This document shows positions 28,068-63,838 of a DNA stretch of 64,000 nt, one piece after another; the stretch's first letter is position 1; each line of letters begins with the position of its first letter. The notes under the pieces were generated by a model. That model did no database searches. It saw only the letters and a list, made by a program, of their open reading frames with translations, and was not told where the DNA came from. This stretch comes from a virus. Location: positions 1 to 64,000 of the IMG/VR virus record IMGVR_UViG_3300030419_005344. The stretch is one strand, 5' to 3'. The position numbers were made by a program, and so were the translations under genes.

Positions 28068-28083
28068 TTATAGACTCTCCATT

Positions 28084-28093
28084 GTTAAATAGT
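28084..28093 (-). promoter_or_regulatory. Recurrent element, variant ACTATTTAAC
   Basis: Minus-strand ACTATTTAAC lies in the 74-base gap between the gp25-like and gp6-like genes, 17 bases upstream of the ATG at 28067. It differs from the exact copies only in the last two bases. The same gap holds a 14-base near-palindrome (28113-28126). Confidence 0.35.
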
Positions 28094-28141
28094 ATCAAGT
28101 ATAACATTTGAGCGCTAAGTTTAGCGGTGGGTGTCCATTGC

Positions 28142-43535: not shown

Positions 43536-43536
43536 A

Positions 43537-44250: not shown

Positions 44251-44252
44251 TT

Positions 44253-46122: not shown

Positions 46123-46123
46123 T

Positions 46124-46939: not shown

Positions 46940-46941
46940 TT

Positions 46942-47661: not shown

Positions 47662-48344
47662 TTTGTTTCCTCGTCAAGTTTAGCCCAATAGTGTCCCATG
47701 GTCATTTTTGTGCTGTTACTAGTGCTGGTTCTATCATTATCAACGTATTTCGATAACGGCATCACCCTAAAGTCGATACTTACTCTTGTCTTTCCGGTCT
47801 TATTTACCTTGTTTCCATGTTTCCAGTTGGCACCACTCCAAACATAATAACCACCGACGGCCGAGTTGAGTGGCACGTAATCCTCAAGCCCCTCTTGTGT
47901 CTCTGTCCATACAGTGCTTGTATCATGAGCGTCAGTTAATGGCAAATATATATTAATTTCTTCAGAAGAATGGTTGTAATCTTTATCTCTATGCCACTCT
48001 GCAACACCAAGATTGTTTGGCACTTGTGTTCTAAAAGTTGGAATTTTTTGGTATATAATTGGCTCACTAAACAAAGGTTGAATATTTTCTTGAATAAAAA
48101 GTTTATAAGTGCTATAAAAAATACTGTCTTTAGGCATATCATAAAATGTCTTATGAAAAATTGTAGACTGATCAGTCTCAAAAGTTAAAACATCAAAATC
48201 GCTGGCGTACACATTGTGTATTTGATTTAATTCTTTCGTTTTAAACCAGCTTGCTACTTCGCTAGACAAATTGTATTTTTTAACATCATACTCAAAAAAC
48301 ATTGGTTTTGTTAAGCCATAATCTAAATTTATTTTACCACCCAT
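47658..48344 (-). CDS. Fe(II)/2-oxoglutarate oxygenase, StrG-like
   Basis: A 228-residue protein. The iron triad is visible in VAEWHRDKDYNHSSEE (HxD), and the distal His and 2-oxoglutarate Arg in WKHGNKVNKTGKTRVSIDFR. The sequence resembles the StrG-type proteins found in aminoglycoside and sugar clusters, which suggests oxidation of an amino- or deoxysugar. Its location between the thymidylyltransferase and a sugar aminotransferase supports that. Substrate unknown. It overlaps the rmlA start by four bases. Confidence 0.72.
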   Translation of the reverse strand: MGGKINLDYGLTKPMFFEYDVKKYNLSSEVASWFKTKELNQIHNVYASDFDVLTFETDQSTIFHKTFYDMPKDSIFYSTYKLFIQENIQPLFSEPIIYQKIPTFRTQVPNNLGVAEWHRDKDYNHSSEEINIYLPLTDAHDTSTVWTETQEGLEDYVPLNSAVGGYYVWSGANWKHGNKVNKTGKTRVSIDFRVMPLSKYVDNDRTSTSNSTKMTMGHYWAKLDEETK

Positions 48345-49491: not shown

Positions 49492-49492
49492 T

Positions 49493-50050
49493 TTAATCCT
49501 CTCGTCTATGTGTGACTAACGTGATCGATGGATGGTTTTCTAACACCAAAATATTAAACCTGTTGTTGCTGTTTTCTGCTTTAATAACTGGTTGGATAAG
49601 AGATTTGTTAAATTTAGACATCCAATAAACATTATCTCTTGCGAATGAACCGCCTTCTAAAACACAAACACCATTTGGTGAAAGCTTTTGCATATAATGT
49701 TCAAAGGTGTGTTTATAAACATCTCCATTATTTGCTATATCAATATGTAAAATGTCAATTTGACCATCTTTAAATTCGTTTTCAGATCCAAAAAAGTCAC
49801 CTCTTCTTATTGAAACATTCTTATGTTTTTCAAATTTTTCAACAATGTCTGTGTAGCTTGCTGCGTTATATGGAAATTGTTCGAATATATCATAAGCAAG
49901 TATTTCGGTGTCTGGCGAGCACACATCCACCCAAGTGGTTAATGAGTATGCTTCCAGAATCCCAAACTCTACTACTTTTTTAGGACGCACAACATGGGCC
50001 AGTGCTCGGAATACATTATCATAATTGTTTTCTTTATAAGATGATTTCAT
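49493..50050 (-). CDS. Class I SAM-dependent methyltransferase
   Basis: A 185-residue Rossmann-like methyltransferase. The SAM-binding start is KKVVEFGILEAYSLTTWVD, followed by ILAYDIFEQFPYNAASYTD (acidic residue at the end of strand 2) and QIDILHIDIANNGDVYKHTF (acidic motif near the catalytic pocket). It resembles small methyltransferases encoded in O-antigen clusters and may methylate a sugar or an amino sugar. The acceptor is unknown. GGGGATT ribosome site. Confidence 0.68.
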   Translation of the reverse strand: MKSSYKENNYDNVFRALAHVVRPKKVVEFGILEAYSLTTWVDVCSPDTEILAYDIFEQFPYNAASYTDIVEKFEKHKNVSIRRGDFFGSENEFKDGQIDILHIDIANNGDVYKHTFEHYMQKLSPNGVCVLEGGSFARDNVYWMSKFNKSLIQPVIKAENSNNRFNILVLENHPSITLVTHRRED

Positions 50051-51040
50051 TTAAATCCCCATCTGCATGCAAGTAATCGCCTCGGCCACCATTTTAGTTG
50101 ATTCTTCCTTGGAGCATGGCATTTCTACCGTAGATAGTGGAAGCGGAGGCCCAAAATAACCACCGCCGCCATTTTGACTCCGCAAAGTAAAGTGATCTTT
50201 ATACAATTCAATAATCCACTCAACTGCTTCCGAATCAGACATGTTAGTCTGTTCAGACAAATAATGAGCAAACGTCGAACAGTGTTTTTGGTCAATATTG
50301 TTTTGCATCATAATATCTAACTTTAATCCATATCCGTCTATTTCTTCTTTGGCTATTTTCGGATTGAACATATTTCTATCAGCATCTGGCCTCTGATTTG
50401 ACGTTCTGATGTGTTGTACTACTGGTAAGGTTTTGATTTTTCCTCGGCAAGCAGATGCAAATAAATAAACTCTATCTAAAAAGTTTAATGGGCAAATACA
50501 AGGGTTGTCAATAAAATTTTGCATTATGTCTACAGCGTCTTCAGTTCGTACAACAGAATGCATACAACCTCTACTACAGTATACAACGGCGAACCTAATA
50601 CGGTCCAAAATGTCCATGGAGTCCCAGTCACAAAGTGCTCTGGCTCGAAATACATCAGGCTTTGGTGCAGGAAAAACAGAATTTGTGTTTGGTGTCCACT
50701 CTACTACTTCTCCATCGCATACTGAGTAGTCAGAATTATTCTCTAGAAAGTTAACACACCGCTCTATTGACTCCTGTGTCATGATATCATCGTCTGGACA
50801 GTTTAAAAGATAAGGAGTTTTAACCATCTTATAGGCATTTAGATAACTCATATGTTGGAATTCAGGGCCAGCATGAAAGTATTCTAAATCTCCCAAGTAC
50901 CCACCATAAGGGTTGACGCTAGCGTCATATATGATTTTGCGATACGGGCGCTCATCATAATATTTTACAATTGATTGTAGGTTAAAGTGCCTATCTCTAA
51001 CCGGGATCACCAACGTAAAAAGATCATTTAGATTTTTCAT
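50051..51040 (-). CDS. GT-A glycosyltransferase (TIGR00180-like)
   Basis: A 329-residue putative glycosyltransferase. The N-terminus LFTLVIPVRDRHFNLQSIVK is the typical nucleotide-binding beginning, and the metal motif is LLNCPDDDIMTQESIERCV. The middle segment DRIRFAVVYCSRGCMHSVVR and the central acidic region match the diverged GT2-like family of polysaccharide clusters. It parallels the gene at 44253-45209. The C-terminal part contains a Gly-rich loop (NGGGGYFGPPLP). No membrane helix. GGAGGT ribosome site. Confidence 0.75.
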   Translation of the reverse strand: MKNLNDLFTLVIPVRDRHFNLQSIVKYYDERPYRKIIYDASVNPYGGYLGDLEYFHAGPEFQHMSYLNAYKMVKTPYLLNCPDDDIMTQESIERCVNFLENNSDYSVCDGEVVEWTPNTNSVFPAPKPDVFRARALCDWDSMDILDRIRFAVVYCSRGCMHSVVRTEDAVDIMQNFIDNPCICPLNFLDRVYLFASACRGKIKTLPVVQHIRTSNQRPDADRNMFNPKIAKEEIDGYGLKLDIMMQNNIDQKHCSTFAHYLSEQTNMSDSEAVEWIIELYKDHFTLRSQNGGGGYFGPPLPLSTVEMPCSKEESTKMVAEAITCMQMGI

Positions 51041-51747
51041 TTAGGCACCTCCAATTCTGTATATCCTTTTTCGTTTCTTAGTTGATTAATTTTTTCCCAA
51101 ACAGATTCATTGAAAACATTTTCGGTTGGCAAAACGCAACGGACTAACAAACAATTATTTTCTTCAACCACAGCTTTCATTCTATCTTGAACCTGCTTAT
51201 ATCTGTTGTTATCAAGAGGTTCTGCTATGGCCACATGTCCTCCATGTTTTGTAGGTCGTGAATGCATCTTGTGATGATAATCACCGTCTGGGTCTTGCCC
51301 CAGTGATACAAATTTTGTGAAACCATTGTGGATCAACCACCGAAGTGCTGATTCATTGGAGCTTCTAGTTTCAAAGTAAACTATATCTGGGTTGAAAGGT
51401 AAATTAAATTTTCTGCTTGTGTGAATATTAAAAGGGTGTATATTCATAAACGGCTCAAGTTGTTTGGTTACAGTTTGATAATTAAATTGTGGACTAGGAT
51501 GCATGTTAACACCATTCACACTGTGTGGAAATTCTGGGAGTGCTAGATTATCTATTGATTCTAGTTCTTTTTTAGAAAAATCTTGAAAATAACAAGCATC
51601 GTTGACAACCCAAAAATCAGTTCTCTCAATAAGTTTTGGCGTAACATTAACACCGCAAGTGTAATATTTGTCTGAGTACCTTACCTTGCGGGCTGTTGGG
51701 CCAGCGGATACTAGAATAACAAACTTATCTTTGTTGTAATCTTTCAT
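51037..51747 (-). CDS. Rossmann-like protein, DUF115/Maf-like
   Basis: A 236-residue protein. The start VILVSAGPTARKVRYSDKYY has the GPT-type loop of DUF115/MptE-like and sialyltransferase-like folds, and a later segment (SSNESALRWLIHNGFTKFVSLGQD) has the pattern expected before the second nucleotide site. Maf-type members attach nonulosonic acids to flagellin in bacteria. This gene overlaps a CMP-sugar synthetase, so a role in transferring a nine-carbon sugar is attractive. The evidence is weak similarity plus context, so I leave the function open. Confidence 0.55.
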   Translation of the reverse strand: MKDYNKDKFVILVSAGPTARKVRYSDKYYTCGVNVTPKLIERTDFWVVNDACYFQDFSKKELESIDNLALPEFPHSVNGVNMHPSPQFNYQTVTKQLEPFMNIHPFNIHTSRKFNLPFNPDIVYFETRSSNESALRWLIHNGFTKFVSLGQDPDGDYHHKMHSRPTKHGGHVAIAEPLDNNRYKQVQDRMKAVVEENNCLLVRCVLPTENVFNESVWEKINQLRNEKGYTELEVPK

Positions 51748-52390
51748 TGTATATAAACTCTGCTATTTTAAAATCTAATTCTGTATCTACATCCGTTGAT
51801 TCCACATCATCTAAGAAAAACGGATAAAACTTATCTCCCACTATGTTCTTTCTAGAAAGCATACTTTTTCTAGTTATCAGATTAACTGCAAAATTTAAAG
51901 CATAATAGTTAGGTAAATCTTGAGATCTTGGATGATTGTTGGGGTCATAATTAACTGGCTGATCAGCGTGCCAGATGTATTCATGCACTTGATGTACTGT
52001 GGCTAATGAATCATATTCATTTGGGAGTGACATATATTTGTTTATGGACTTTTTAAGAGAGCTATCCAAAAGTAGTGGGCTAGTTACATGTGCGTACAGA
52101 ATATGCTCATCCTGTGTCATATTAGCTAAATACTCATACACCTCGTTCATAGGCACACTGTCAGAGGCGTAATATGGATCTCTTAAGTCTGTCTTAACAT
52201 CATACTTGCTAGCTAACGACAACATTTTTTCGCAATCACTGCTCACATAGATATTACTTATATTATCCATTCTTAGTAATTGCTGTATTTTAATTTCTAG
52301 CAAATTTGAATCAGCAAAAGGTCGAGAGTTTTTATTGACAACTCTTTTAGAGCCTTTTCTAACTGCTATAATCGCTGATAGATTATTCAT
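51725..52390 (-). CDS. CMP-sugar synthetase (NeuA-like cytidylyltransferase), copy 1
   Basis: About 221 residues from the ATG at 52390. A longer TTG start at 52405 would extend into the upstream gene and has no ribosome site. The nucleotide loop is LSAIIAVRKGSKRVVNKNSR, a diverged form of the GGSKR-x4-KN pattern, followed by YVSSDCEKMLSLASKY, DSVPMNEVYEYLANM, and DDVESTDVDTELDFKIAE, which carries the C-terminal acidic Mg2+ motif. It should activate a nonulosonic or related acid sugar with CTP. It differs clearly from the copy at 55429-56109, so the two may use different sugars. Confidence 0.8.
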   Translation of the reverse strand: MNNLSAIIAVRKGSKRVVNKNSRPFADSNLLEIKIQQLLRMDNISNIYVSSDCEKMLSLASKYDVKTDLRDPYYASDSVPMNEVYEYLANMTQDEHILYAHVTSPLLLDSSLKKSINKYMSLPNEYDSLATVHQVHEYIWHADQPVNYDPNNHPRSQDLPNYYALNFAVNLITRKSMLSRKNIVGDKFYPFFLDDVESTDVDTELDFKIAEFIYNERLQQR

Positions 52391-53288
52391 TAGTAAGCGC
52401 CTCAAAGCATTCTAATATGCCTTTGTCAATGTCAGTTTGGGGAGACCAGCCATGTTGAATTAGTTTTGAGTTGTTGCCACTAACCCCATGGGGATCCCCA
52501 GCATGTCCACCTATATTTTCTGCCTTTACAGATTTTTTAGATATTTTCAGTATTAATTGAATTAAGTTATTTAAAGTTATTTTGGAGCCCGAACATACGT
52601 TGTAAATTCCTTCTACTGATTTGTCTTCTAACGGTAGAAGCATTGCATTGATAACGTCATTTACATGTATCAGATCACGAAATCTTTCCAATGACCCTTT
52701 AACTTGAATAGTATCGCTCTTAATAGCTTGATTTAAAAAGATACTAACAAGACCTTGAGTTAGATTTTTTGTATCTTGATGTGGACCATAGCAATTAAAT
52801 ATCCTATAAATAACACAGCGCATGTCAGGATTTAGTTGATTATAAAAATTTATGTAATGCTCCCCACACATCTTACTTATGCCATATGGAGATACAGGTT
52901 GTAATAAATCTGTTTCTTCAGCGTTTTCATTTTCTCCATATACAGCCATACTTGAGGAATAAATCACAGTTTGTACATTGTTTAAGGCAGCAAATTTAGA
53001 AACATTAAGTGTCCCTAATGCATTACATTCTAAATCAAATTTAAGATTGTCTAGGGCACCAAGAGTGCCTACTTGTGCAGCAAGATGGTATATTACCTCA
53101 CATTTTGGTAATTTTAATACAGATTCATAGTTTGTTATGTCACATGAAACACATTCAAAATTGTCGTAATGATATTTTGTAAATTTCTGACTTAAATCGC
53201 ATAATACAATTCTGTGCCCAATTGACTTTAATTTATCAGCCAAATGTGTTCCTATGTAGCCAGCGCCGCCTGTGATCATTATATTCAT
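52383..53288 (-). CDS. NAD-dependent sugar-nucleotide epimerase
   Basis: A 301-residue extended SDR. Rossmann motif ITGGAGYIGTHLADKL; VIYHLAAQVGTLGALDNLKF; serine motif IYSSSMAVYGENENAEETD; active-site pair SPYGISKMCGEHYINF; and the substrate motif RIFNCYGPHQDTKNLTQGLV with ERFRDLIHVNDV. It is a UDP-glucose-4-epimerase-like enzyme. The specific epimerisation is not readable. The ATG overlaps the SDR gene stop as TAATG. Confidence 0.83.
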   Translation of the reverse strand: MNIMITGGAGYIGTHLADKLKSIGHRIVLCDLSQKFTKYHYDNFECVSCDITNYESVLKLPKCEVIYHLAAQVGTLGALDNLKFDLECNALGTLNVSKFAALNNVQTVIYSSSMAVYGENENAEETDLLQPVSPYGISKMCGEHYINFYNQLNPDMRCVIYRIFNCYGPHQDTKNLTQGLVSIFLNQAIKSDTIQVKGSLERFRDLIHVNDVINAMLLPLEDKSVEGIYNVCSGSKITLNNLIQLILKISKKSVKAENIGGHAGDPHGVSGNNSKLIQHGWSPQTDIDKGILECFEALTNE

Positions 53289-54007
53289 TATAACTGTCCA
53301 CCATTAATGTCTAACACACATCCTGTTATATACGAAGCAGCATCTGAACATAAAAACAACACTGGCAAAGACTGATCACGCGGTTCGGCCAATCTTCTCA
53401 GGGGAATATTGGCGGACAATTTTTGAATTTCTTTCTTTGTCATCGACTCTTTTAGCATATCTGTCTCAGTTTGACTAGGACAGGTGGCATTTATATTAAT
53501 ACCATATGGCGAGGACTCCTGTGATAGCTGCCTTGTAAGACCAAGGATTGCAGCTTTGCTAGCTGTATAATGTGCTCCACTTACAATACTTTTGTTTCGA
53601 CCTGCTATAGATGAAACATTTACAATCTTACCAAAATTATTTGTTTTCATTTTCTTAATAGCTAATTTACAGGTAATATAAAAAGATCTCAAATTAACTG
53701 ATAAAACTTCGTCCCACTCCTCTACATCAATATCTTCTACCTTTTTACAAAAGTTAATTGCTGCTACATTAACAAGAAAATCAAGTCTTTCTATTTTTGA
53801 AAAAGCCTTTTTTATTTCCTCGGCGTTTTGTATGTTACATTGTAGGTGATTTGCTTTTAATATTTTTTTGCATTGAGATTTAGATCTGGATATATAGTAT
53901 ACATTGGCTCCAGAGTCTAGAAAGTCTTCTACGATCCTTCGACCAATGCCTCGGGAACCGCCGACAACTAAAACAGTTTTATTTGTAAAATTGAATTTAA
54001 TGTTCAT
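53288..54007 (-). CDS. Short-chain dehydrogenase/reductase
   Basis: About 239 residues from the ATG at 54007; earlier frames lie in the cupin gene. Classical SDR: NKTVLVVGGSRGIGRRIVED, DFLVNVAAINFCKKVED, KIVNVSSIAGRNKS, active-site pair GAHYTASKAAILGLTRQ, and the C-terminal LCSDAASYITGCVLDINGGQ. It probably reduces or oxidises a sugar or keto intermediate. Three SDRs in the island (this one and those at 57731 and 58462) point to several redox steps. It overlaps the upstream cupin gene by 11 bases. Confidence 0.82.
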   Translation of the reverse strand: MNIKFNFTNKTVLVVGGSRGIGRRIVEDFLDSGANVYYISRSKSQCKKILKANHLQCNIQNAEEIKKAFSKIERLDFLVNVAAINFCKKVEDIDVEEWDEVLSVNLRSFYITCKLAIKKMKTNNFGKIVNVSSIAGRNKSIVSGAHYTASKAAILGLTRQLSQESSPYGININATCPSQTETDMLKESMTKKEIQKLSANIPLRRLAEPRDQSLPVLFLCSDAASYITGCVLDINGGQL

Positions 54008-54440
54008 TCTGCTCAATATCAGGGTAGACATGATTAACATCAGGTCGCGTAATAGCATACCTAACACCCGGATTAGTACCAACACATTTAATATGGTGCG
54101 GTACGCCCTTTGGCACTACAATAATATCATGTTTTTTAACTCTCTGAGTGCCTTGACCTTCGATCCACCACTCCCATTCTCCTGCTAGTATAACCCAGTT
54201 TTCGTCTGCATCAGGATGAAAATGTTTTCTGTTTCCCTCACCGGGCTGTTGTTGTATTACAACTCCTCCAAACAATTCGTTATAAGCTATTCTTACAGCC
54301 CAAGAGCCCATACCTAGTTCATCTCTTAGGTCTTCAAGGTTTATGGTTGTGATATTTTCAAATTGGTGGAAAGAACAAAGAGAGTCAGAATTTAGACCAT
54401 CTTCTTTCAAAACATTTTTTACATCATCATCGTTCTTCAT
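53997..54440 (-). CDS. Cupin-domain protein
   Basis: About 147 residues from the ATG at 54440 (MKNDDDVKNVLKEDGLNS). A longer TTG frame lies inside the upstream gene. The cupin core is visible in HFHPDADENWVILAGEWEWW (metal-binding HxH and E) and GVPHHIKCVG, with a histidine further on. Cupins in sugar clusters act as epimerases, isomerases or metal-dependent oxygenases; the reaction here is unknown. A TTGACT/TATACT promoter-like pair sits six bases before the ATG, so the transcript could be leaderless, but a weak AGGA lies about 13 bases upstream. Confidence 0.72.
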   Translation of the reverse strand: MKNDDDVKNVLKEDGLNSDSLCSFHQFENITTINLEDLRDELGMGSWAVRIAYNELFGGVVIQQQPGEGNRKHFHPDADENWVILAGEWEWWIEGQGTQRVKKHDIIVVPKGVPHHIKCVGTNPGVRYAITRPDVNHVYPDIEQNEH

Positions 54441-54442
54441 AT

Positions 54443-55420
54443 TTAAAGTATATCCTGTTTTTCTAACAAAGTCAAGGTATTTTCCCAATTTTTAAATTGT
54501 ACTGCCTTATCATCTATATAACAAACAGCCCGAGGCTTCTCGGCTGTTACTTTACTAATGTATTGTGATAAATTATGTTTATCAAGCCACTCCCAAATTA
54601 ATTGGACACCAGTCTTTCCATTAACAAGGCCTCGGTCACCGCGTGCTTTACAGGTATAAATTATGATTGTATATTGCTTTGCCAACATCTTGAGTGCTTC
54701 CTCGGCGCCATCCACCGGCTCATCATATATTGTACCATCATGATATCCCTTGGAACATTTATGGATAACTCCATCAAAATCTATTCCCATATTTACAAGT
54801 TCATCCGGATAACTATGTTTGCGTACCTTGCCGCCTCTCCAGTTAAGTTTTTCTAATTCTTCCGGTGTGTTTTTTCCAATTGGAGGACAAACATGGCCTG
54901 AACCATGTGTTAATTGATATGTTAATAATAACGTAAGTACTTCTGACGTATGGTAATAATCTGCCCCTAGGACCACTTGTGTAAGATTGTTAACATTTTC
55001 CACAATTGGAATTGATGTTATCATAGCGACTTCCATTCCATGATCATTACCCCACTGTAGCGCCCTAATAATATCGCGAGACTTACCAGAAGATGAGATA
55101 CCAAGAACAAGTGATTTTTTCATTTGCGTTTTGGTTCTTGCAGATGTGCGACTGGATAACCAACTTACCATCCACTGATCAAAACCAACGTCGTTAATCA
55201 AAGATGTAGCTACAACTCCGCTACCGGGACACATGGCATTCTTATTGCCATTTGATAACCTCGTAATATCTACTGCTGCATGATCAGCAACAGCGAGATT
55301 GCCTCCGTGCCCAAGCACATAAATTTCATTACACCGATTAAATTTTTCTTGCAGTTCTTTCCAAGAATCGGTGTTTACAGTATTGACAAATTTTTCACCT
55401 ATATTTTCAAAATTTAACAT
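54443..55420 (-). CDS. SIS-domain/HAD-domain fusion protein
   Basis: About 325 residues from the ATG at 55420, which has GAGGT just upstream. The N-terminal half (residues about 30-185) is a SIS sugar-phosphate domain like phosphoheptose isomerase GmhA: IYVLGHGGNLAVADHAAVD, then DVGFDQWMVSWLSS and LGISSSGKSRDIIRAL. The C-terminal half (from about 205) is a HAD-like domain with MGIDFDGVIHKCSKGYHDG and the late acidic motif VCYIDDKAVQF. The fusion could isomerise and dephosphorylate a sugar phosphate that feeds the sialic-acid-like pathway. Both activities are inferred from the motifs. Confidence 0.75.
   Translation of the reverse strand: MLNFENIGEKFVNTVNTDSWKELQEKFNRCNEIYVLGHGGNLAVADHAAVDITRLSNGNKNAMCPGSGVVATSLINDVGFDQWMVSWLSSRTSARTKTQMKKSLVLGISSSGKSRDIIRALQWGNDHGMEVAMITSIPIVENVNNLTQVVLGADYYHTSEVLTLLLTYQLTHGSGHVCPPIGKNTPEELEKLNWRGGKVRKHSYPDELVNMGIDFDGVIHKCSKGYHDGTIYDEPVDGAEEALKMLAKQYTIIIYTCKARGDRGLVNGKTGVQLIWEWLDKHNLSQYISKVTAEKPRAVCYIDDKAVQFKNWENTLTLLEKQDIL
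54447..54475 (-). promoter_or_regulatory. Possible promoter giving leaderless cupin mRNA
   Basis: Minus-strand TTGACT (54475-54470) and TATACT (54452-54447) are separated by 17 bases. Only six bases separate the -10 from the cupin ATG. Each box has one mismatch. It lies in the 3' end of the SIS-HAD gene, so coding chance is possible. Confidence 0.35.
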
Positions 55421-55428
55421 CCAACACC

Positions 55429-56109
55429 TCAAACAATATATCGGGCTGACCAAAGTTGTTCAGCTAATTCTATGTCATGAATATCATCAATATCAATTGA
55501 CCTTTCTCTTGGTATTAATATACCTTTAACGTTACCTTTGAAAAAGTTTTTATTTTGCAACAACTTATTCCACTTAGCCATATGAAAACCACCACTTGGC
55601 TTATAATACTTTTTAATAAATTTACTGTTAGTAAGACCAGCCTCTAAGTTATCAAATACTGGCATAACCCAGCCTTCTTTCATGACACACGCTAGCTGTA
55701 TAGTTTCCGGAATTTCAGTCATGCTTAAAACAGAGTCTACATCCTCATTGAGAGCGTCTACTCCTTTTTGTATATCTTTGGATGATATGAACGGACAAGT
55801 TGGGAGAAAGTAAGCAAAAATATCATATTGTTCGTCTGTGTTCTCCATCAGATTTAACATGGCGTTCAGGGCTGTTGCTTTAACCGTTGCGTGCTCTTGT
55901 GGCCTATGGTGCCTCTCAACGTTTAAATCTTGCACAGCACTAAAAATTTTATCACTATCAGTAGATATAAGAACCTTATCAAAACACCCAGAATTAACAA
56001 CTGCTTCTGTGGTCCACCTGATTAAAGGTTTTTCTCCGAGTGGATAAATATTCTTGTCTTTAAGCCTAGTAGAGCCGCCGCGAGCAGGGATCACTGCCAG
56101 TCTTTTCAT
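55429..56109 (-). CDS. neuA: CMP-sialic-acid-type synthetase (NeuA-like), copy 2
   Basis: A 226-residue cytidylyltransferase. The nucleotide loop LAVIPARGGSTRLKDKNIYP is close to textbook, followed by KVLISTDSDKIFSAVQD, FLPTCPFISSKDIQKGVDAL and the Mg2+-binding ERSIDIDDIHDIELAEQLW. It should activate a nonulosonic acid (sialic, legionaminic or pseudaminic type) as CMP-sugar. It lies in the same operon as the NeuB-type synthase and near the GT29-like transferase. GGAG ribosome site with an ATGA overlap. The exact sugar is not readable. Confidence 0.9.
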   Translation of the reverse strand: MKRLAVIPARGGSTRLKDKNIYPLGEKPLIRWTTEAVVNSGCFDKVLISTDSDKIFSAVQDLNVERHHRPQEHATVKATALNAMLNLMENTDEQYDIFAYFLPTCPFISSKDIQKGVDALNEDVDSVLSMTEIPETIQLACVMKEGWVMPVFDNLEAGLTNSKFIKKYYKPSGGFHMAKWNKLLQNKNFFKGNVKGILIPRERSIDIDDIHDIELAEQLWSARYIV

Positions 56110-57074
56110 TTCTTACTCCTAGTGAGGTATGGTGAGCCGCTAGAAATATCATCCATCATTTGTTCTAGCTCACGAAAATCATTGTCTGGTAATTGCTGCA
56201 ATGGCATTCTTTCCTGCCTACTCATAACTCCCATAACATCCATGGCAGATTTGATGCCAAGATGCCAACCAAACTTATCTTTAATTGTGTTAAAGGGCAA
56301 TTCTACTTTTTCTATGATATGATTACATTTTTCAGAATCACCATTTTTCCAAGCCTCATAAAAATCAACCTCAATAGATGGATTAAAGCCTCCAGTCCCT
56401 GATAGCCAACTGTGAACATGAGGAGTAAACTTCATCCATTGTTTCATGCCATATCCAGATGTAATAACAGCTAATCGATCACATAGTTTTCTTGAAACCT
56501 TATCTGTGTACTCATCCTTTTTAGCATCTTCTTTAATGGCAATCACATTATCTAGATCCGCAATTTTGTCTAAGAGTTCCAAAGACCAATCAATGCGTGG
56601 TGGCTGACCGGGGATGCCATTGTTAAGAGGCATTTCGTGAATTAAGATTCCAACGTTACAGTTTTCTGAAACTTCTTTGTAGTGATTATAAACTTGCTCT
56701 TCAAAATATACTTTCTCTCTAAATATCAGAGAAATAACGTCTGCACCAATCATTTCAGCGTGCTTGGCAAAATCAATAGATGTTTGCGTCGAGCAATGAA
56801 GCGGATCTGCCACAATTACAACACAATCGTCATCGTTATAGCTTTTCACAGTTCGGGTAACTACCTCATTCAATTGCATAATTTCAATGTCAGATAGGAT
56901 ACTAAATCTACTATTGTAGCCCATCACATAAAATACTTTTGCTCCACCCTCATATAAAAATTTAGTATACTGTTCAACAGCGGGCCAATCAACATGAGTG
57001 CCGTTCTCTGTAAAAGGAGTTATGATGGCAAATGCAGGTCCTTTTATTTTTTCTCTTATTTTATCTAAATTCAC
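56106..57074 (-). CDS. DapA/N-acetylneuraminate lyase-family protein, diverged
   Basis: A 322-residue protein of the class I aldolase TIM-barrel family, from a GTG start in a GTGA overlap with an AGAGGTGA site. The Schiff-base lysine is in DNVIAIKEDAKKDEYTDKVS (K181). Two normally conserved features are missing. The catalytic Tyr of the Y-N-x-P motif is replaced by His (LIHEMPLN, H146), and the usual GTTGE substrate loop reads GYNSRFSILSDIE. It may have a different substrate from DHDPS or sialic acid lyase. Context (NeuB, NeuA, SDRs) suggests a role in nine-carbon sugar chemistry. Confidence 0.75.
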   Translation of the reverse strand: MNLDKIREKIKGPAFAIITPFTENGTHVDWPAVEQYTKFLYEGGAKVFYVMGYNSRFSILSDIEIMQLNEVVTRTVKSYNDDDCVVIVADPLHCSTQTSIDFAKHAEMIGADVISLIFREKVYFEEQVYNHYKEVSENCNVGILIHEMPLNNGIPGQPPRIDWSLELLDKIADLDNVIAIKEDAKKDEYTDKVSRKLCDRLAVITSGYGMKQWMKFTPHVHSWLSGTGGFNPSIEVDFYEAWKNGDSEKCNHIIEKVELPFNTIKDKFGWHLGIKSAMDVMGVMSRQERMPLQQLPDNDFRELEQMMDDISSGSPYLTRSKK

Positions 57075-57379
57075 TTCTCACCTCTAAAAAAGTCTTCTGA
57101 GTTAATTGCTTTATCGCATATTAGCAAATCATAGTGTGGCTTTTCTCCCACACTTAAACCATGGTATTTACAACCCCATGACTTCAATTGATTTTCTGTT
57201 ACCTCTCTCCAATCAATGCCGCTTTGTGCGCCGCGAGCAGTATAATAGGTAATTTTATTACCTTCATCATATAATTTATTAATTTGTTCAATTCTGTTAA
57301 GATCAGGAACAGCATCAGGATACTTACGATCGCCCTTATAAAAACAGATTGTTTCATCCATATCGACATATATAATCAT
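57071..57379 (-). CDS. Small HAD-superfamily phosphatase
   Basis: A 102-residue HAD-like protein. The nucleophile motif is IIYVDMDETICFYKGDRKY, followed by ITYYTARGAQSGIDWREVTE and the C-terminal acidic motif PHYDLLICDKAINSEDFF. Such small HADs occur in capsule and nonulosonate clusters and probably dephosphorylate a sugar phosphate. Size is well below most HADs but the core motifs are all present. It starts in a TAATG overlap and ends in the GTGA overlap with the DapA-like gene. Confidence 0.78.
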   Translation of the reverse strand: MIIYVDMDETICFYKGDRKYPDAVPDLNRIEQINKLYDEGNKITYYTARGAQSGIDWREVTENQLKSWGCKYHGLSVGEKPHYDLLICDKAINSEDFFRGEK

Positions 57380-57729
57380 TAATCACCCTTCTTTATTCTG
57401 TAGCTATCAGAATCAAAATGTTGTGTTGAAAACTCAAATAACTCTGTATCTTCTAGGGCGTACATTTGATGCCGCAGGCCTCGATAAACATGAAATCTGT
57501 CTCCGGGTCCTAATTCTATTTCGTTAGCGTTATTTAAGTTATCTTCATCTGAATATTTTACTAGCATCCTACCAGATTGAATGTAAAATACTTCGTCCTT
57601 TAAAATGTGATAGTGCCATGAACAACGCTTACCTTTAACAAAGTAAAGCAATTTTCCACAATACTCTTCACAATTAACAATCCATTTTTCAAATCCCCAT
57701 CCTTTAGGGACAAAATTAATATTTTCCAT
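57379..57729 (-). CDS. Cupin-type sugar-phosphate isomerase-like protein
   Basis: About 116 residues from the ATG at 57729, immediately after the upstream stop; the longer frame has no good start. Cupin features: RCSWHYHILKDEVFYIQSGR (metal ligands HxH and E) and GPGDRFHVYRGLRHQMYALE, with a late H in FSTQHFDSDSYRI. It resembles small mannose-6-phosphate isomerase-like cupins found with NeuB and NeuA genes. AAGG ribosome site. Reaction inferred only. Confidence 0.72.
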   Translation of the reverse strand: MENINFVPKGWGFEKWIVNCEEYCGKLLYFVKGKRCSWHYHILKDEVFYIQSGRMLVKYSDEDNLNNANEIELGPGDRFHVYRGLRHQMYALEDTELFEFSTQHFDSDSYRIKKGD

Positions 57730-57730
57730 T

Positions 57731-58465
57731 TTATAAACCTTTGATTGACCAGCCACCATCTACTAATAGTGATTGCCCAGTGATATAAGAAGAGGCAGGA
57801 GACGCTAAAAATAACGTTGGCCCAATAAGATCAGAGGGAGTACCCCACTTGTTCAGTACAGTTCTACGAGCGCGAGCGTCCCTCTTGTCTAGATTAGTCC
57901 AGCTTTCACCCGTCATTTTTGTTTTAATGTATCCGGGTGCTATGGCATTGACTCTAATTTTCTTTGAACCCAGATCTAATGACATAGATCGAGTTAATCC
58001 TGCCAGAGCAGTCTTGGAAGCTACATATGCTGGGTTATTAGGGAACGCTAGGGAGGCGTTTAAACTTGTTATATTGATAACGCTTGGCGTTGAGGACTTT
58101 TCCAAGAGTGGCACTAATTTGGTTGTTAACTTAAATGGAACATCAATATTCACAGCGAATGTCTTGTGCCAAGATTCAAAGCAATATGAACCTTCTTGTG
58201 GTATAGTTATGCCGGCACAATTTAATAACACGTCTAGTTTTCCGTGAGTTTTTTCTACAAAATCATATATGGTTTTTAAAGATTTCAAATCAGTTAAATC
58301 TAAACTAAACCGGTGCGACAAAGCGTATTCATTTTCTGGAAATGATATGTCGGCGCCAATCACAATCGCCCCCGATTGGGAAAGCGCGTTGGCCAACTCA
58401 TAACCTATACCTCTTCCCGCGCCTGTTACAAGGCATATTTTGTTCTCAACAGAAAATATACTCAC
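57731..58465 (-). CDS. Short-chain dehydrogenase/reductase
   Basis: A 244-residue classical SDR from a GTG start in a GTGA overlap. Motifs: ICLVTGAGRGIGYELANALS, DVLLNCAGITIPQEG, SVINITSLNASLAFPNNPAY with the active-site pair PAYVASKTALAGLTRSMS, and the ending SSYITGQSLLVDGGW. It is paralogous to the SDRs at 53288 and 58462. Probably acts on a sugar or keto-acid intermediate of the nonulosonate pathway (inference from position). Confidence 0.82.
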   Translation of the reverse strand: MSIFSVENKICLVTGAGRGIGYELANALSQSGAIVIGADISFPENEYALSHRFSLDLTDLKSLKTIYDFVEKTHGKLDVLLNCAGITIPQEGSYCFESWHKTFAVNIDVPFKLTTKLVPLLEKSSTPSVINITSLNASLAFPNNPAYVASKTALAGLTRSMSLDLGSKKIRVNAIAPGYIKTKMTGESWTNLDKRDARARRTVLNKWGTPSDLIGPTLFLASPASSYITGQSLLVDGGWSIKGL

Positions 58466-59151
58466 TGCACAAACATCCTATTTAGTCTTACCTCTTCAGC
58501 TATCATATTACCATCATATTTTATGGTGTTAACAATATAATCAGAAATTTCATCTGGCTCCATAAAGGTATCGTAGTCTTGACCTTGCACCAGTTCTCCC
58601 ATTTTTGTCTTTATGGATCCCGGTGAAAAACTGTAAACTCTTATCCCATGTTCTTTTAGTTCTGAATATGCAGATCTGGTAAGACCTAATAACGCGTGTT
58701 TAGAGGCGCAGTAAACAGAAGTGTTAGCAAAACCAGCATATGCAGATGAAGACGCGATATTAACAATCCTGCCCCATTGCTTATTTTTCATATGTGGGAT
58801 AACACTTTTCATCATCACAAACGGGGCACGAACATTAACATTGAACGTTTCATTAAAAGTCTCCTCTGTTGTGTCTTCTATTTTCGATACTGGAAAGACG
58901 CCGGCGCAGTTAATTAAAATATCTGGCTTGACCTCTTCCGCCAGTCTTTTTATATCGGACGTGTTTTGAAGATCTAAACATTTAGATCCTAAACAAGATT
59001 TATTTGATTGTTCTATTTGCTTTAAAATGTTTGCATTACGCCCAGTTATAAAGACTTTAACACCGGAAGCAGTCAACTTGTTGATTATTGAACGACCAAG
59101 GCCGCCGGTGGCACCAGTAACTAATGCTACCTTATTATTTAGTGCTGTCAT
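58462..59151 (-). CDS. Short-chain dehydrogenase/reductase next to neuB
   Basis: About 229 residues from the ATG at 59151. The longer frame lies inside neuB, and the 17-base overlap with neuB is retained. Motifs: NKVALVTGATGGLGRSIINK, DILINCAGVFPVSKIED, RIVNIASSSAYAGFANTSVY with the active-site pair SVYCASKHALLGLTRSAYSE, and RVYSFSPGSIKTKMGEL. SDRs next to NeuB occur in legionaminic and related pathways as the PtmA-type reductase. The precise reaction is not known. No clear ribosome site, so translation may depend on coupling to neuB. Confidence 0.8.
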   Translation of the reverse strand: MTALNNKVALVTGATGGLGRSIINKLTASGVKVFITGRNANILKQIEQSNKSCLGSKCLDLQNTSDIKRLAEEVKPDILINCAGVFPVSKIEDTTEETFNETFNVNVRAPFVMMKSVIPHMKNKQWGRIVNIASSSAYAGFANTSVYCASKHALLGLTRSAYSELKEHGIRVYSFSPGSIKTKMGELVQGQDYDTFMEPDEISDYIVNTIKYDGNMIAEEVRLNRMFVQ

Positions 59152-59998
59152 TGTAGTTTTGGAACCAATAAGGTGTAGACAGTTTTTCACGGGCGGGCAT
59201 CTCAGAGTCATAGATTCTCTTAACACCATCCCCAAGGGCAGCGGATATGGTTCTAATGTCTCGGACCAACATGTTTAATCCAGATAGGCCCAAAGATGCT
59301 GATTGGTCGGAACCGTACATTGAGCGATCAACTGTGATATGGCGCTCAATACTAGTAGCACCGAGGGCGGTGGCTGCTAAAGAAATTTGCACCCCTCTCT
59401 CATGACCGCTGTAACCAACTTTTACTCCATATCTTTCGCGTAGTGTAGCCATAACATTTAGGTTTGCCTCTTCATTGTTCATTGGGTACGAAGAGTTACA
59501 ATGCATCAATTCAAAGGGGCAATCATGTGATCTAAAAATCTGTACTGCCGCATCAATTTCTTCTAAAGTACTCATACCAGTTGAAATAAACGTGTATTTT
59601 CCTTCCTCAGCAATCTTGTGTAGAAGCGGAGTAACTCTAAGCATTGGCGAAGCAACCTTATTATATTTATGATTATACTGTCTCATAAATTCTTGACTCT
59701 CAAGATCCCAACAAGATACAAACCATTCGATTCCTACTTCTTTACAGTGTGAATCAATTTCATCATACTCTTCTTTAGAGAATTCAAGACCTAATTTTTG
59801 TTCTCGATTAGTTTTACCAAAAGGACTCTCTCTAGGTCTATCTAGATCCTCTGGAGTGTAGACAAGTTCCACACTTCTCTTTTGAAATTTAACGGCATCG
59901 CAGCCAGCAGACTTTGCCTCGTCAATTAATCTTTTCGCTAATTCAATGCTTCCGTTATGATTGATGCCTATTTCGGCAATCACTAAAACATCACTCAT
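59135..59998 (-). CDS. neuB: NeuB-type nonulosonic acid synthase, catalytic domain only
   Basis: A 287-residue synthase that condenses phosphoenolpyruvate with an N-acyl amino sugar to give a nonulosonic acid. TIM-barrel signatures: VIAEIGINHNGSIELAKRLI, CDAVKFQKRSVEL, FISTGMSTLEEIDAAVQIF, ELMHCNSSYPMNNEEANLNV, VGYSGHERGVQISLAATALG and ERHITVDRSMYGSDQSASL. NeuB enzymes normally continue with an antifreeze-like SAF domain to about 340-350 residues; here the frame stops after the barrel. That domain helps close the active site in characterised enzymes, so activity may depend on a partner. Strong GAGGT ribosome site and the best promoter in the window just upstream. Confidence 0.9.
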   Translation of the reverse strand: MSDVLVIAEIGINHNGSIELAKRLIDEAKSAGCDAVKFQKRSVELVYTPEDLDRPRESPFGKTNREQKLGLEFSKEEYDEIDSHCKEVGIEWFVSCWDLESQEFMRQYNHKYNKVASPMLRVTPLLHKIAEEGKYTFISTGMSTLEEIDAAVQIFRSHDCPFELMHCNSSYPMNNEEANLNVMATLRERYGVKVGYSGHERGVQISLAATALGATSIERHITVDRSMYGSDQSASLGLSGLNMLVRDIRTISAALGDGVKRIYDSEMPAREKLSTPYWFQNYNDSTK

Positions 59999-60054: not shown

Positions 60055-60083
60055 ATTATAGCACCAAAAGTAAGCCTTGTCAA
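60055..60083 (-). promoter_or_regulatory. Perfect sigma70 consensus promoter for the neuB operon
   Basis: Minus-strand TTGACA (60083-60078) and TATAAT (60060-60055) are both exact consensus and separated by exactly 17 bases. The element is intergenic, between the GT29-like gene and neuB. Predicted start near 60048, giving a leader of about 50 bases containing an inverted repeat and a good ribosome site. It implies strong expression by unmodified host RNA polymerase. Confidence 0.82.
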
Positions 60084-60084
60084 A

Positions 60085-60729
60085 TCATATTTTTGAATTT
60101 ATTACGTTTAATAATTTACTTGTCATTAATCTAGATATTAGCTTTTGTTCTTCAGTAGCATTGTGACATGGACTACATTCTTTTGGTCTGTCTTGGTAAT
60201 AATGAGTCCTTGGCACAGGTTCCAAATCAAAACCAAAAAGATTAGGTTGAATACCGGCTTTTACACTTAAGAGCACCGCAATGGTTCCTACTTGTAAATT
60301 TTGTGTTGAATTATATAAAAAGTATTTTTTCAATTCTGGAATGGAATTATATTCGAACAAATACAAATCGTTACTGTTGTGCGTATTGGAGCGTCTGTTA
60401 AGCCACGGCCCAAGATCCGGTGCTGTATATAAGATTTTGCTGTCTCTTAGGTCTCTAACAAAATTTGGAGGTGAATTAGAATACCCCATTTTCTTTATAT
60501 CATTATTGTTAAAGACGTGATTGTTCACCACTCTCAAGGTTGTTTTACCACCAACATCCTGTTCATACCCATCTGTAGGGGAACGATTAAACCTAATCAC
60601 TTCGTCATGCGAATCAATCAAATTTCCCAGTTTAGAATTTAATAAATTACCGCTAGCGCCTACAATAGCCACTTTTCCTTGTAGAGATAAAAGCGGGGAG
60701 ACGTAGGGAATTTTATAATTAGTCTTCAT
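60085..60729 (-). CDS. Sialyltransferase, GT29 (eukaryotic-type sialylmotifs)
   Basis: A 214-residue protein carrying all four sialylmotifs of family GT29. Motif L spans residues 20-68 ([20 protein letters not shown], then [20 protein letters not shown] and GGKTT). Motif S spans 145-168 ([15 protein letters not shown] to LFGFD). Motif III is THYYQD (H176). Motif VS is HNATEE (H189, E194), the catalytic H-x4-E. Motif L reads closely to animal ST6Gal/ST3Gal sequences. The two cysteines that form the structural disulphide in animal enzymes are replaced (V20 and G159), and there is no membrane anchor, consistent with a cytoplasmic enzyme. It would transfer a CMP-activated nonulosonic acid to a glycan. 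Family match is strong by eye; donor and acceptor are unknown. Confidence 0.85.
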
Positions 60730-60779: not shown

Positions 60780-61589
60780 TTACAATAATAAAGTTATTGA
60801 CTTATAAAGATTGTCGTTTGAAAACCATTCCCAATATTCTTGATTGTCATATGAAGGCAAGTCAGCCGAAGTGGCATTCATTTCTTCTAACATTCTATAC
60901 CAGTTTTTATTCTGTAGTGGCATTCTAGAGGGCAGCTTCAAGTGGTCACTAATAACAATCGGCCATGAGTTCATTGCCATGGCTTCCCACATTCTTATAG
61001 TGCTAGGGCCTGTTCCGCGAGGACATAGACTATACTTCGTGTCCCCTAGAATTTCTACATATCGGCGGCGATTCTCCTCTTGTCTAGTCGGACTAGATTC
61101 AAAATGCCAGCCGCCCGTATCCACAACATAGCAATCAGCCCTTTTGCTAAAAATATCAAAAATTTTCTGCCTCACCGGATGGGTTGTGAAGGCGCCCACA
61201 AAACTAAAAGTGTATCTTCTTTCATCCCATGGCTTTATCAGTGACGTATCATAACTACAGGCATAGTGTGGTATTGGTAAATATGAATCAAAAACTGTTG
61301 CGTGTGGTGTAAAAACCGTGTGCCCGTTAAAGTTTAAATTTTTAACTTGTATATGCTGGCAAACAAAAAATAACTTTCTTCCTTTTAGATCGTGACATAC
61401 TTTGTTAATTACGGCCTGTACCCAGCCAACTCCTCTGTGGTTTATATTCCAAGCTAAAGGCATCGCAACATAAACATGATCTGTATATATCTGATTTTTA
61501 TTGTCTAAAAGTTGATTATAAATTGTTTCCTCTGTTTTTACAGGGTCATCAACAACATCAAAATTTTGTACTTCATATATTTGTAGCAT
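60780..61589 (-). CDS. Exostosin-like glycosyltransferase (GT47-like)
   Basis: A 269-residue protein. The C-terminal signature YSLCPRGTGPSTIRMWEAMA followed by MNSWPIVISD is the nucleotide-sugar-binding part of exostosin-family enzymes. The middle SFVGAFTTHPVRQKIFDIFS is also typical. Such enzymes add glucuronic acid, GlcNAc, galactose or xylose; the sugar here is unknown. It starts in a TAATG overlap with the upstream gene and has an AAGG site. No membrane helix. Confidence 0.82.
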   Translation of the reverse strand: MLQIYEVQNFDVVDDPVKTEETIYNQLLDNKNQIYTDHVYVAMPLAWNINHRGVGWVQAVINKVCHDLKGRKLFFVCQHIQVKNLNFNGHTVFTPHATVFDSYLPIPHYACSYDTSLIKPWDERRYTFSFVGAFTTHPVRQKIFDIFSKRADCYVVDTGGWHFESSPTRQEENRRRYVEILGDTKYSLCPRGTGPSTIRMWEAMAMNSWPIVISDHLKLPSRMPLQNKNWYRMLEEMNATSADLPSYDNQEYWEWFSNDNLYKSITLLL

Positions 61590-62416
61590 TATAGCCTTTT
61601 ATATTTATCTATTAAAATTTTAGAATTACCTTGAAACTGCAAATTGTGAAGCCTTACTTTCTTATCGTGCCTTAGATTGTATCCATACGGCTTATTATCT
61701 ATAAATTCTATCTCTTTTACACCATTAGAAAATTTATATTCATCATCGTAATAGTTCGCTGGATTGTTTATACTGTGGTCGAAACTTGTGCCATCCGGTA
61801 GTAGGTTGGTAATTATCATGGCCTTGTTTCTTCTAGTAAAGTGCCACAACGCTGTCATGTCACACACACCACCGGGTAGATTATTATTTTTGTGATAATT
61901 CCACTTTTCCAAAAGCTTTCGAAATTCAAATGAATCATTGTACATTTCTATTAAATAATTACAAAACTTATCTAACATGCCCAACGACCAATATGATACT
62001 TCACCAGTAGCAGCTTGTCTAAAATATGGTTGTTTTTTGGGGATAGCCAAAGCTAGATTTGGTTTTCCAATTGCACTATAAACATCAGACAGATTAGAAA
62101 ATATTAAATTGTCTGAGTCTCCGTAAAATATATCATCACACTTCATCATTTTGGCAGCATTCCTAACTGCAATCCAGCGAATAAAACACCATTCTTCAAA
62201 TTTTTGACCTCCGGTGTGCATATGTTTATACAACTTTAGAAACTTTTCTATGTCTTGGTAACACTCGTTGATGTGAATATGCCTTACGTTATTAAGATTA
62301 CCAAGATGTTCATTGTCGTTATCACCAATAAGCACAACGTCATTTTTCCTTGAAGCTTGTTCAATTGTGGTCTTTAGGTAGGGTTGAAACCCGGCGTGGA
62401 AGAAAAATGTCTTCAT
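61589..62416 (-). CDS. GT-A-type glycosyltransferase-like protein
   Basis: A 275-residue protein. A DxD-type metal motif occurs in CDDIFYGDSDNLIFSNLSD, preceded by the Trp-containing EEWCFIRWIAVRNAAKMMKC. A later segment (LPGGVCDMTALWHFTRRNK) could hold the acceptor site. It does not match a family I can name, but the arrangement fits retaining or inverting GT-A enzymes of polysaccharide clusters. It overlaps the FkbM-type gene by four bases. Confidence 0.62.
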   Translation of the reverse strand: MKTFFFHAGFQPYLKTTIEQASRKNDVVLIGDNDNEHLGNLNNVRHIHINECYQDIEKFLKLYKHMHTGGQKFEEWCFIRWIAVRNAAKMMKCDDIFYGDSDNLIFSNLSDVYSAIGKPNLALAIPKKQPYFRQAATGEVSYWSLGMLDKFCNYLIEMYNDSFEFRKLLEKWNYHKNNNLPGGVCDMTALWHFTRRNKAMIITNLLPDGTSFDHSINNPANYYDDEYKFSNGVKEIEFIDNKPYGYNLRHDKKVRLHNLQFQGNSKILIDKYKRL

Positions 62417-63033
62417 CTTGTTAAAGTAACCTCAGCTAGTTTTTTATATTTTGATTTTTCATACATTTCGACAAAACCAAATGATTTAATAAGTTCAATG
62501 CATCTAATTGTGTCTTCTATTGTCTTACCCGAACAAAAATGATGAAATTCAACACAAATCTGCCTAACAGATTCCGGTATGTATTTTAAGTTTTCTATGA
62601 CACTGTACTCTGAGCCCTCTATATCCATCTTAATGACAGAAATATTATCATATGTCTTAAACAGAGTAGGCAAATCAATTGTTTCTGCTAGGTGATGTTC
62701 ATATTTTGAGACTGAATTGTGATCGGGCAATTCTGACTCCGACACATGATCTGGATTTGTGTTACAGAACAACCTTATGATATCATCATTTGCGTGTGTA
62801 AGGGCTTTTTTTAGCAAATAAAAATTGTGTAAATTTGTTTGAGATTCAATAAACTTGTGACTTTTTGGGGTTGGGTCTATGCCAACCACGTTGCAAGAAA
62901 GCCTTTCTATAAGTTCCAAGTCAAAACTAATATCTTCACCAACGCCAGCAGATATTATGGTTGAGCCGCGAGGAATAAGGTCCAGATTTACAAGCCAACC
63001 TCCATAATCAGTGCCAAGCAATTCAATTGCCAT
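62413..63033 (-). CDS. FkbM-family methyltransferase
   Basis: A 206-residue SAM-dependent methyltransferase. SAM-binding: STIISAGVGEDISFDLELIE and CNVVGIDPTPKSHKFIE. FkbM signature: ISVIKMDIEGSEYSVIENLK. Members O-methylate sugars and related compounds, so this probably caps or modifies the glycan. GGAGCT ribosome site. Overlaps both neighbours. Confidence 0.85.
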   Translation of the reverse strand: MAIELLGTDYGGWLVNLDLIPRGSTIISAGVGEDISFDLELIERLSCNVVGIDPTPKSHKFIESQTNLHNFYLLKKALTHANDDIIRLFCNTNPDHVSESELPDHNSVSKYEHHLAETIDLPTLFKTYDNISVIKMDIEGSEYSVIENLKYIPESVRQICVEFHHFCSGKTIEDTIRCIELIKSFGFVEMYEKSKYKKLAEVTLTR

Positions 63034-63838
63034 TCAAAAGCTCCAACAAAATTTTATAATTTTTGTTTTCAGTTTGTAAAAAAAGTGCCTTTATTTTGTC
63101 CACCAAAAATTGTCCAAAATTTTCATACTCTAACTCTCGGCTTGTGTGAACATGAAAGTTAACTGCTGGCCTGTTACCAAACCAAACTCTATCATCCTTA
63201 ACGTGCAACTTGTCTAGCCTGCTTTTTGTAGAGTGATTGTTAAACCTCCACCATCCTATGTTATAGTTGATTGGCAGATTTAAAGAAACATAATTTCTTT
63301 GAACGAACTCCAGCGGCTGCTGTTCAAAATAAAAACCATACTTTTTGTAATCTACTGACAACTGATGCCATGTATCAAGAAAATGTTTATTTTTTATGTG
63401 AAACATCCCACCGTTATACAAGCCGTGTTGAGCTTCAACCTGCCAGTTGTTTGTCATGTGTTGGCATATTGCAGCGTCGATATTTTTATTGTTGAACAAC
63501 TCAAGCACCTCATTTTCCAGAGGGTTAACAAACACCATATCAGAGTCTAAAAATAATACCTGCCCATACTCTTCAAGTGACTTATAACAAGCGTCAAACT
63601 TAGTCATCATCACTTTCATCCAATTATCTTTTTTAACTTCGTCGTTAATATTATGGTCACAATCATCAGTATCTATAACGTTTAGGCAAGTTGTGTTTTT
63701 TAAATTATAAAATTTATCATACGCAACTTTGTCACATGATAAAAACCAATGACACTTGTGATATTGTTCAAAGCTAGTTTTTAACAAAATAAATTCTGAT
63801 ATAGTTTTTTGAGTCACAACTGACGCTACTGGTATCAT
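63023..63838 (-). CDS. GT-A glycosyltransferase-like protein with DxD motif
   Basis: A 271-residue protein. The metal motif lies in GQVLFLDSDMVFVNPLENEV, and the acceptor-side segments YNGGMFHIKNKHFLDTWHQL and FGNRPAVNFHVHTSREL resemble nucleotide-diphospho-sugar transferases of the GT8/GT77 type. The N-terminus is ASVVTQKTISEFILLKTSF. The sugar is unknown. ATGA overlap with the partial upstream gene. Confidence 0.68.
   Translation of the reverse strand: MIPVASVVTQKTISEFILLKTSFEQYHKCHWFLSCDKVAYDKFYNLKNTTCLNVIDTDDCDHNINDEVKKDNWMKVMMTKFDACYKSLEEYGQVLFLDSDMVFVNPLENEVLELFNNKNIDAAICQHMTNNWQVEAQHGLYNGGMFHIKNKHFLDTWHQLSVDYKKYGFYFEQQPLEFVQRNYVSLNLPINYNIGWWRFNNHSTKSRLDKLHVKDDRVWFGNRPAVNFHVHTSRELEYENFGQFLVDKIKALFLQTENKNYKILLELLNGN

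Follow-up and report, generated by a model that had tools for sequence, protein, structure and literature searches.

The window, a stretch of 64,000 nucleotides forming positions 1 to 64,000 of an IMG/VR virus record that is 69,711 bp in full, carries on its minus strand (60085-60729) an open reading frame of 214 amino acids with an ATG start that, judged by its sequence, is a genuine member of the bacterial and phage branch of glycosyltransferase family 29 (GT29); the plus-strand translation of the same interval is full of stops. We consider it highly probable, from sequence and predicted structure, that this protein is a true GT29 enzyme of the cytoplasm which transfers an ulosonic acid from the CMP form made by the adjacent gene cassette, within a phage-directed glycan synthesis. 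GT29 was long regarded as an animal sialyltransferase family and was later traced to bacteria, and to our knowledge little has been established about what it does outside eukaryotes.

A first-pass annotation of the DNA had proposed GT29 membership and named a profile search as the check. That search gives a significant match to Pfam family PF00777 (Glyco_transf_29; E=3.2e-27, score 96 bits where the cut-off is 23), in which residues 21-205 align with profile positions 58-271 of 272, and together with the fold and the catalytic residues described below it bears out the membership. PF00777 is also the sole Pfam family matched by the aligned phage and bacterial relatives (40/40), and a chance match is excluded. 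Comparison of the 214-residue protein with PDB sequences using phmmer finds ST6Gal1 (9e-14) and ST3Gal1 (8e-12), mainly through motif L; a profile built from the 40 relatives finds pig ST3Gal1 at 2.9e-33 over chain residues 93-295, which indicates that motifs S, III, and VS are aligned as well. No PHROGs family matches the protein. The bacterial sialyltransferases of families GT42, GT38, GT52, and GT80 use CMP-sialic acid; identity with any of these was rejected, as there is no Pfam match but PF00777 and they do not appear among the significant fold matches. A hydropathy scan of the protein reaches a maximum of 1.29 against a threshold of 1.6 for a transmembrane segment, in agreement with the earlier reading that a membrane anchor is absent.

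Foldseek comparison of the AlphaFold2 model of the protein (mean pLDDT 94.5, pTM 0.91) with the PDB returns animal GT29 chains for all of the first 30 matches (E 1.6e-11 to 7e-8, TM 0.54-0.70 against the model, some 20-23% of the structurally aligned residues identical), and the next matches, at 9e-3, have unrelated folds, indicating that the GT29 fold, a variant GT-A arrangement, is present in the predicted structure, as the first-pass assignment implied. Residues were mapped onto human ST3Gal1, in which H299 is the catalytic acid and H316 the base (PMC6884586). Motif L then lies at approximately residues 20-66, motif S at approximately 145-167, motif III at H176-Y177, and motif VS at H189-x4-E194. 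H299, Y300, H316, E321, and N170 of ST3Gal1 correspond to H176, Y177, H189, E194, and N48, and the disulphide cysteines of the family, C142 and C281, to V20 and G159, confirming the four sialylmotifs, the H189-E194 pair, and the two cysteine replacements that had been read from the letters beforehand. All 36 phage and all 11 bacterial alignment rows have H189, E194, Y177, N48, and G148, and H176 is kept in 35 of the 36 and 10 of the 11. Three of the residues through which ST3Gal1 touches the sugar are changed (Y191 to N69, S268 to Q146, and T269 to V147), so that Neu5Ac is not to be assumed as donor; N147 is replaced by A25, and ST6Gal1 likewise departs from ST3Gal1 at N147 and Y191. Flagellar members of the Maf/MptE-like (DUF115) proteins are thought to transfer nonulosonates. 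A weak fold likeness of the GT29 protein to Maf/MptE-like proteins was observed in PDB 5mu5 and BFVD A0A6J7XC21.

The gene lies in a glycan island of 27 kb that adjoins structural genes. To one side are baseplate wedge proteins (gp6-like and gp25-like subunits, 26271..28534, minus strand; phrog_219 2.4e-20, phrog_261 1.2e-20), a primase, a RuvC-like resolvase, and a late sigma factor, and to the other, at 67-69.7 kb, PhoH-like and PD-(D/E)XK-like proteins named from sequence; phage genes thus flank the island on both sides, consistent with the phage location first proposed. Comparison of baseplate and primase places Microcystis phage Mel-JY01, Flavobacterium phages immuto, and the 484-kb LR756508 nearest, none of them reaching 40% identity. 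The GC content is 0.364 in the island (43.5-64 kb) and 0.440 in positions 1-40000, which suggests acquisition. Besides sugar-nucleotide genes the island contains methyltransferases and several transferases that are soluble; a hydropathy scan of its open reading frames found no integral or polytopic membrane protein, and no O-antigen flippase, polymerase, initiating transferase, exporter, or ligase is encoded in it, although the record is a fragment and exporters could be encoded elsewhere or supplied by the host.

All features of the island given here are on the minus strand. Directly upstream of the GT29 gene is a GT47 (exostosin/RXYLT1-like) glycosyltransferase gene (60780..61589; PF03016 5.9e-13, PF24785 6.6e-11), GT47 being, like GT29, a family best known from eukaryotes. 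Beyond it are a putative glycosyltransferase (61589..62416; no Pfam match, 29% identity to the protein at L003 9176-9988, whose gene directly precedes GT29 in phage L003), an FkbM methyltransferase (62413..63033; PF05050 2.3e-8), and a nucleotide-diphospho-sugar transferase (63023..63838; PF03407 4.7e-6). Beside GT29, as the first-pass annotation had it, and directly downstream of it, is a NeuB-family ulosonate synthase of 287 amino acids (59135..59998; PF03102 3.3e-70, PDB 6ncs 8e-41), which aligns with positions 1-273 of the 329 of TIGR03569, below the trusted cut-off, and has no C-terminal SAF domain. Between the GT29 stop and neuB, at 60055..60083, the sequence TTGACA-17-TATAAT, with a TG preceding the -10 element, fits the sigma-70 promoter consensus exactly; it is the sole exact extended consensus in the window, where shuffles lead one to expect 0.02. 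This putative promoter suggests that the ulosonate genes form a separate transcription unit, and because it separates the two genes a transcript shared by GT29 and neuB is not certain.

Downstream of neuB follow two SDR oxidoreductases (58462..59151, start codon inferred, PF00106 4.9e-47; 57731..58465, NCBIfam SDR models), a cupin protein (57379..57759; PF07883 9.5e-8) with a 75% homologue adjoining NeuB in phage L003, a small HAD-like phosphatase candidate of 102 amino acids (57071..57379; phrog_1238 9.6e-26, HAD motif read from sequence) that recurs in phage GT29 cassettes, an enzyme of the DHDPS/N-acetylneuraminate lyase superfamily (56106..57074; PF00701 1.1e-21, below the cut-off of each NCBIfam model matched), and a CMP-ulosonate synthetase of the NeuA/PseF/KdsB family (55429..56109; PF02348 1.6e-25, PDB NeuA 9ftb 1.5e-25), the further-downstream CMP-sugar synthetase noted at first reading. 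Next to it is a fusion of a SIS (GmhA-like) domain with a C-terminal HAD-like segment (54443..55453; weak PF01380/PF13344, TIGR00441 2.6e-7), of which phage L019 has a 68% homologue. The rest of the island (40012..54488; names mostly from sequence of the translated reading frames) encodes UDP-sugar dehydrogenase-, GMD-, Fcl-, RmlA/B/D-like and DegT (PF01041 5.9e-76) enzymes, glycosyltransferases, a methyltransferase, and a cupin, and includes a second cytidylyltransferase of the PseF/NeuA type (51725..52405; TIGR03584 5.6e-21). The NeuB and NeuA families of the Neu5Ac pathway are present in the record, and a NeuC/UDP-GlcNAc 2-epimerase (PF02350) is absent from its 69,711 bp, which are a fragment and for which the host could supply ManNAc. 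The sialic acid donor assumed at first is weakened by the lack of this epimerase in the record and by the KdsA-like synthase that replaces NeuB in several relatives.

An IMG/VR search with the single GT29 protein found nothing, and alignment-based patterns were needed; scans with these found about 80 viral loci with GT29. In 50,697 phage records tblastn gave a match in LR756508 only, which carries four GT29 genes around neuB and a HAD gene. Among 39 strong viral loci, which include near-copies without phylogenetic independence and so provide counts and not independent events, NeuB is found in 23/39, a KdsA-like synthase in 11/39, and one or the other in 33/39, with a CMP-sugar synthetase in 34/39 and HAD and DHDPS proteins in 16/39 each, against a background of 3 NeuB and 4 KdsA homologues in the 50,697 phage records. 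The partner gene of GT29 in the strong loci is usually at most 50 bp away or overlapping, often by a few bases. These counts leave out 37 weak GT29-like viral loci (hmm below 100 bits), which were kept out of the linkage claim because NeuB is present in only 7 of the 37 and these may be different proteins that share the GT29 fold. Virus assignments of individual contigs in IMG/VR were spot-checked, and phrog_2 and phrog_219 are partly useful as phage hallmarks, as the contigs are fragments and phrog_2 also occurs in bacterial genomes. A polytopic membrane protein is near GT29 in 1 of the approximately 80 viral loci.

Several further features of these loci were observed. Arrays of four or five GT29 genes occur in single phage loci (L002 12213-17034, L029 5319-10178). 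A DHDPS-family enzyme recurs in KdsA-type and several NeuB-type cassettes, and its presence is explained by no step known to us in the synthesis of Kdo or sialate. NeuB lacks a SAF domain in the window (59135-59998) and in L003 (10637-11509), which belongs to the window branch, and is 617-629 amino acids long at L041 10624-12477 and L007 9653-11542, the L041 protein having SAF and a xylose-isomerase-like C-terminal domain. In L106 (Marine virus AG-345-L05) NeuB and HAD genes adjoin a protein (13136-13810) that is not GT29 by profile and is possibly another type of ulosonate transferase.

The donor-synthesis genes beside GT29 are exchanged between cassettes. KdsA proteins of GT29 cassettes match Kdo-8-phosphate synthase models, and the three tested reach the cut-off of NF003543 and fall below that of TIGR01362; placing the NeuB or KdsA label on the GT29 tree requires six changes. 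In the pair L041 and L051 the DNA shows 83% identity up to and including the end of GT29, no relationship after it, and similarity once more further on, so that the breakpoint coincides with the GT29 stop (L041 10624-14218 versus L051 10594-12286). The exchanged stretch of L041, about 3.6 kb, holds the fusion of NeuB with a xylose-isomerase-like domain, a DHDPS gene, and another gene, and that of L051, about 1.7 kb, DHDPS and KdsA genes, while across the swap the GT29 proteins are 89% and the CMP-sugar synthetases 86% identical. The records of L049 and L051 carry a terminase-like gene (phrog_2, which we take to be the large terminase family, at 1e-24 to 1e-25, and weak support from PF03237), in line with their being phages; the L041 record has only a weak partial match. 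The simplest reading, which we infer from this comparison, is that either the transferase tolerates different ulosonic acids or the product changes. A wider reading, possible but somewhat unlikely, is that many phages carry a modular, membrane-free ulosonylation system in which a conserved GT29 and CMP-ulosonate synthetase would be combined with swappable C9 (NeuB) or C8 (KdsA) donor modules, altering the acidic sugar on virions or on the infected cell, and that a swap at the GT29 stop would give the transferase another ulosonic acid.

Family, fold, catalytic residues, the absent anchor, phage context, and tight linkage to ulosonate-synthesis genes are computed, and we infer the activity, identity of the donor, order of steps, and acceptor. 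Given the chemistry of GT29 and its adjacency to donor synthesis, the protein is very likely a CMP-ulosonate transferase; what points to inverting transfer from a CMP-ulosonate donor is the genomic linkage to genes of CMP-ulosonate synthesis. Within the infected bacterium the enzyme would act in the cytoplasm, through the inverting GT29 mechanism, in which H189 would serve as the base that deprotonates the acceptor hydroxyl and H176 would help the CMP leaving group. The sugar moved from its CMP form would be a C9 nonulosonate, perhaps the C8 sugar Kdo in some relatives, made by NeuB-type condensation with PEP, HAD-like dephosphorylation, and NeuA activation in turn. GT29 would be one among several soluble transferases building the phage-directed glycan, and its probable acceptor is either a protein of the virion or a precursor of the host's surface glycan.

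The description of the system as of eukaryotic type, if taken to mean origin, is not upheld by the relatives. A first contig scan for bacterial relatives found none, and a closer alignment yielded two, in the Opitutales MAG L083 (52% identity by BLAST) and in Pelagibacteraceae L084 (34%), both in chromosomal glycan loci; one bacterial chromosomal relative has NeuB, NeuA, and DHDPS genes around GT29. Wider surveys gave GT29 matches in 2/385, 5/289, 6/347, and 3/177 genomes, some of them weak or fragmentary. The closest partner of the window protein on the GT29 tree is L083 (SH-aLRT 98), and phage L003 joins the two next (95); a clade of three SAR11-order proteins lies within the phage group, and two animal sequences, imposed as the outgroup with branch support 66, fall outside the phage-bacterial group. 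Recent capture of an animal or algal sialyltransferase gene by the phage might be entertained, as GT29 is best known from animals and eukaryotic viruses carry it (a herpesvirus, PMC3462797; a coccolithovirus, PMC5371807), but the nearest relatives are bacterial (52%) and phage (47%) and the length and absent cysteines fit bacterial GT29; we regard such capture as extremely improbable and reject it on the tree. Loss of transfer activity, with the GT29 fold retained for binding a CMP-sugar or for regulation, would account for the changes at S268/T269 and N147, yet the catalytic motif is kept, the catalytic histidine and glutamate are invariant across the 47 phage and bacterial rows, ST6Gal1 itself also differs at N147 and Y191, and the gene is tightly linked to donor synthesis, making a loss of activity quite improbable.

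For an active transferase the main alternatives concern the acceptor. GT29 may modify lipopolysaccharide or capsule precursors of the host on the cytoplasmic face, to be exported by host machinery, so that the host surface would be changed, for example excluding competing phages or releasing progeny, and the cassette would have been captured from an O-antigen cluster of a bacterium. The chromosomal glycan loci of the Pelagibacteraceae and Opitutales relatives, the lower GC content of the island, and its Rml-, Fcl-, and GMD-like genes, which are typical of O-antigen clusters, are consistent with this reading, whereas polymerase, flippase, initiating transferase, and ligase genes are absent from the island and nearly absent near the other phage copies, an argument limited by the fact that the host would merely have to supply this machinery. 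We treat host-surface modification as a plausible alternative, somewhat short of even odds. Glycosylation of phage structural proteins in the cytoplasm, by which the virion would coat itself, comes close to an even prospect: the island lacks membrane proteins and adjoins structural genes and GT29 is soluble and without an anchor, although an acceptor site or glycosylated virion protein is only putative and host-supplied export is possible. The two kinds of acceptor are almost equally probable; a virion protein is slightly favoured over a host surface-glycan precursor because the island has no flippase, polymerase, exporter, or ligase, all of which the host could supply.

The phage copies of GT29 sit on donor-synthesis genes, which makes their function testable. 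Animal GT29 enzymes are hard to make in bacteria, and the phage proteins are small, soluble relatives of them. Natural swaps of donor modules beside nearly identical GT29 proteins offer ready pairs for mapping donor specificity, and if the sugar decorates virions, the phage would encode its own acidic coat.

Among known systems the closest are the 23 bacterial GT29 proteins without disulphide or anchor described by Petit et al. (2018; PMC5811610), to which no function was given there. Like the window protein they have motifs L, S, III, and VS, no anchor, and no L/S cysteine pair, whereas the present protein is encoded by a phage, in whose 27-kb glycan island no gene for a membrane protein lies. 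The cytoplasmic character proposed at first reading thus stands, but neither the missing disulphide nor the missing anchor is a new adaptation, and a phage-specific disulphide loss is ruled out by these proteins and by the bacterial alignment rows. With animal GT29 (ST3Gal1, ST6Gal1, ST8SiaIII, ST6GalNAc2) the phage protein has in common the fold (TM at most 0.70), the catalytic histidine, and H-x4-E, as well as the HY of motif III with ST3Gal1; in contrast to them it has no stem, is shorter at 214 amino acids, has changed donor-sugar contacts, and lacks both the invariant L-S disulphide (C142-C281 in hST3Gal1) and the type II anchor. GT29 is also virus-encoded in chelonid herpesvirus 5, where it is a host-like type II membrane protein (PMC3462797), coccolithovirus (PMC5371807), the mimivirus ChoanoV1, and squirrelpox virus, but no neuB/neuA cassette is reported for these in the literature examined. 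The suggestion that a phage GT29 might be undescribed holds for the open-access literature, in which no paper on one was found, and not for databases: BFVD lists automatically named phage GT29 and giant-virus GT29 proteins, and UniProt A0A6J5NLG3, 'Glycosyl transferase family 29 [uncultured Caudovirales phage]', an automatic name, is a fold match at E 7e-8 with 492 amino acids versus 214 here. With no such paper, no PHROGs family, and GT29 already known from eukaryotic viruses, the protein adds a new branch, from phages, to a family already known, and what we would call new is the recurrent GT29 cassette with its donor-module swap.
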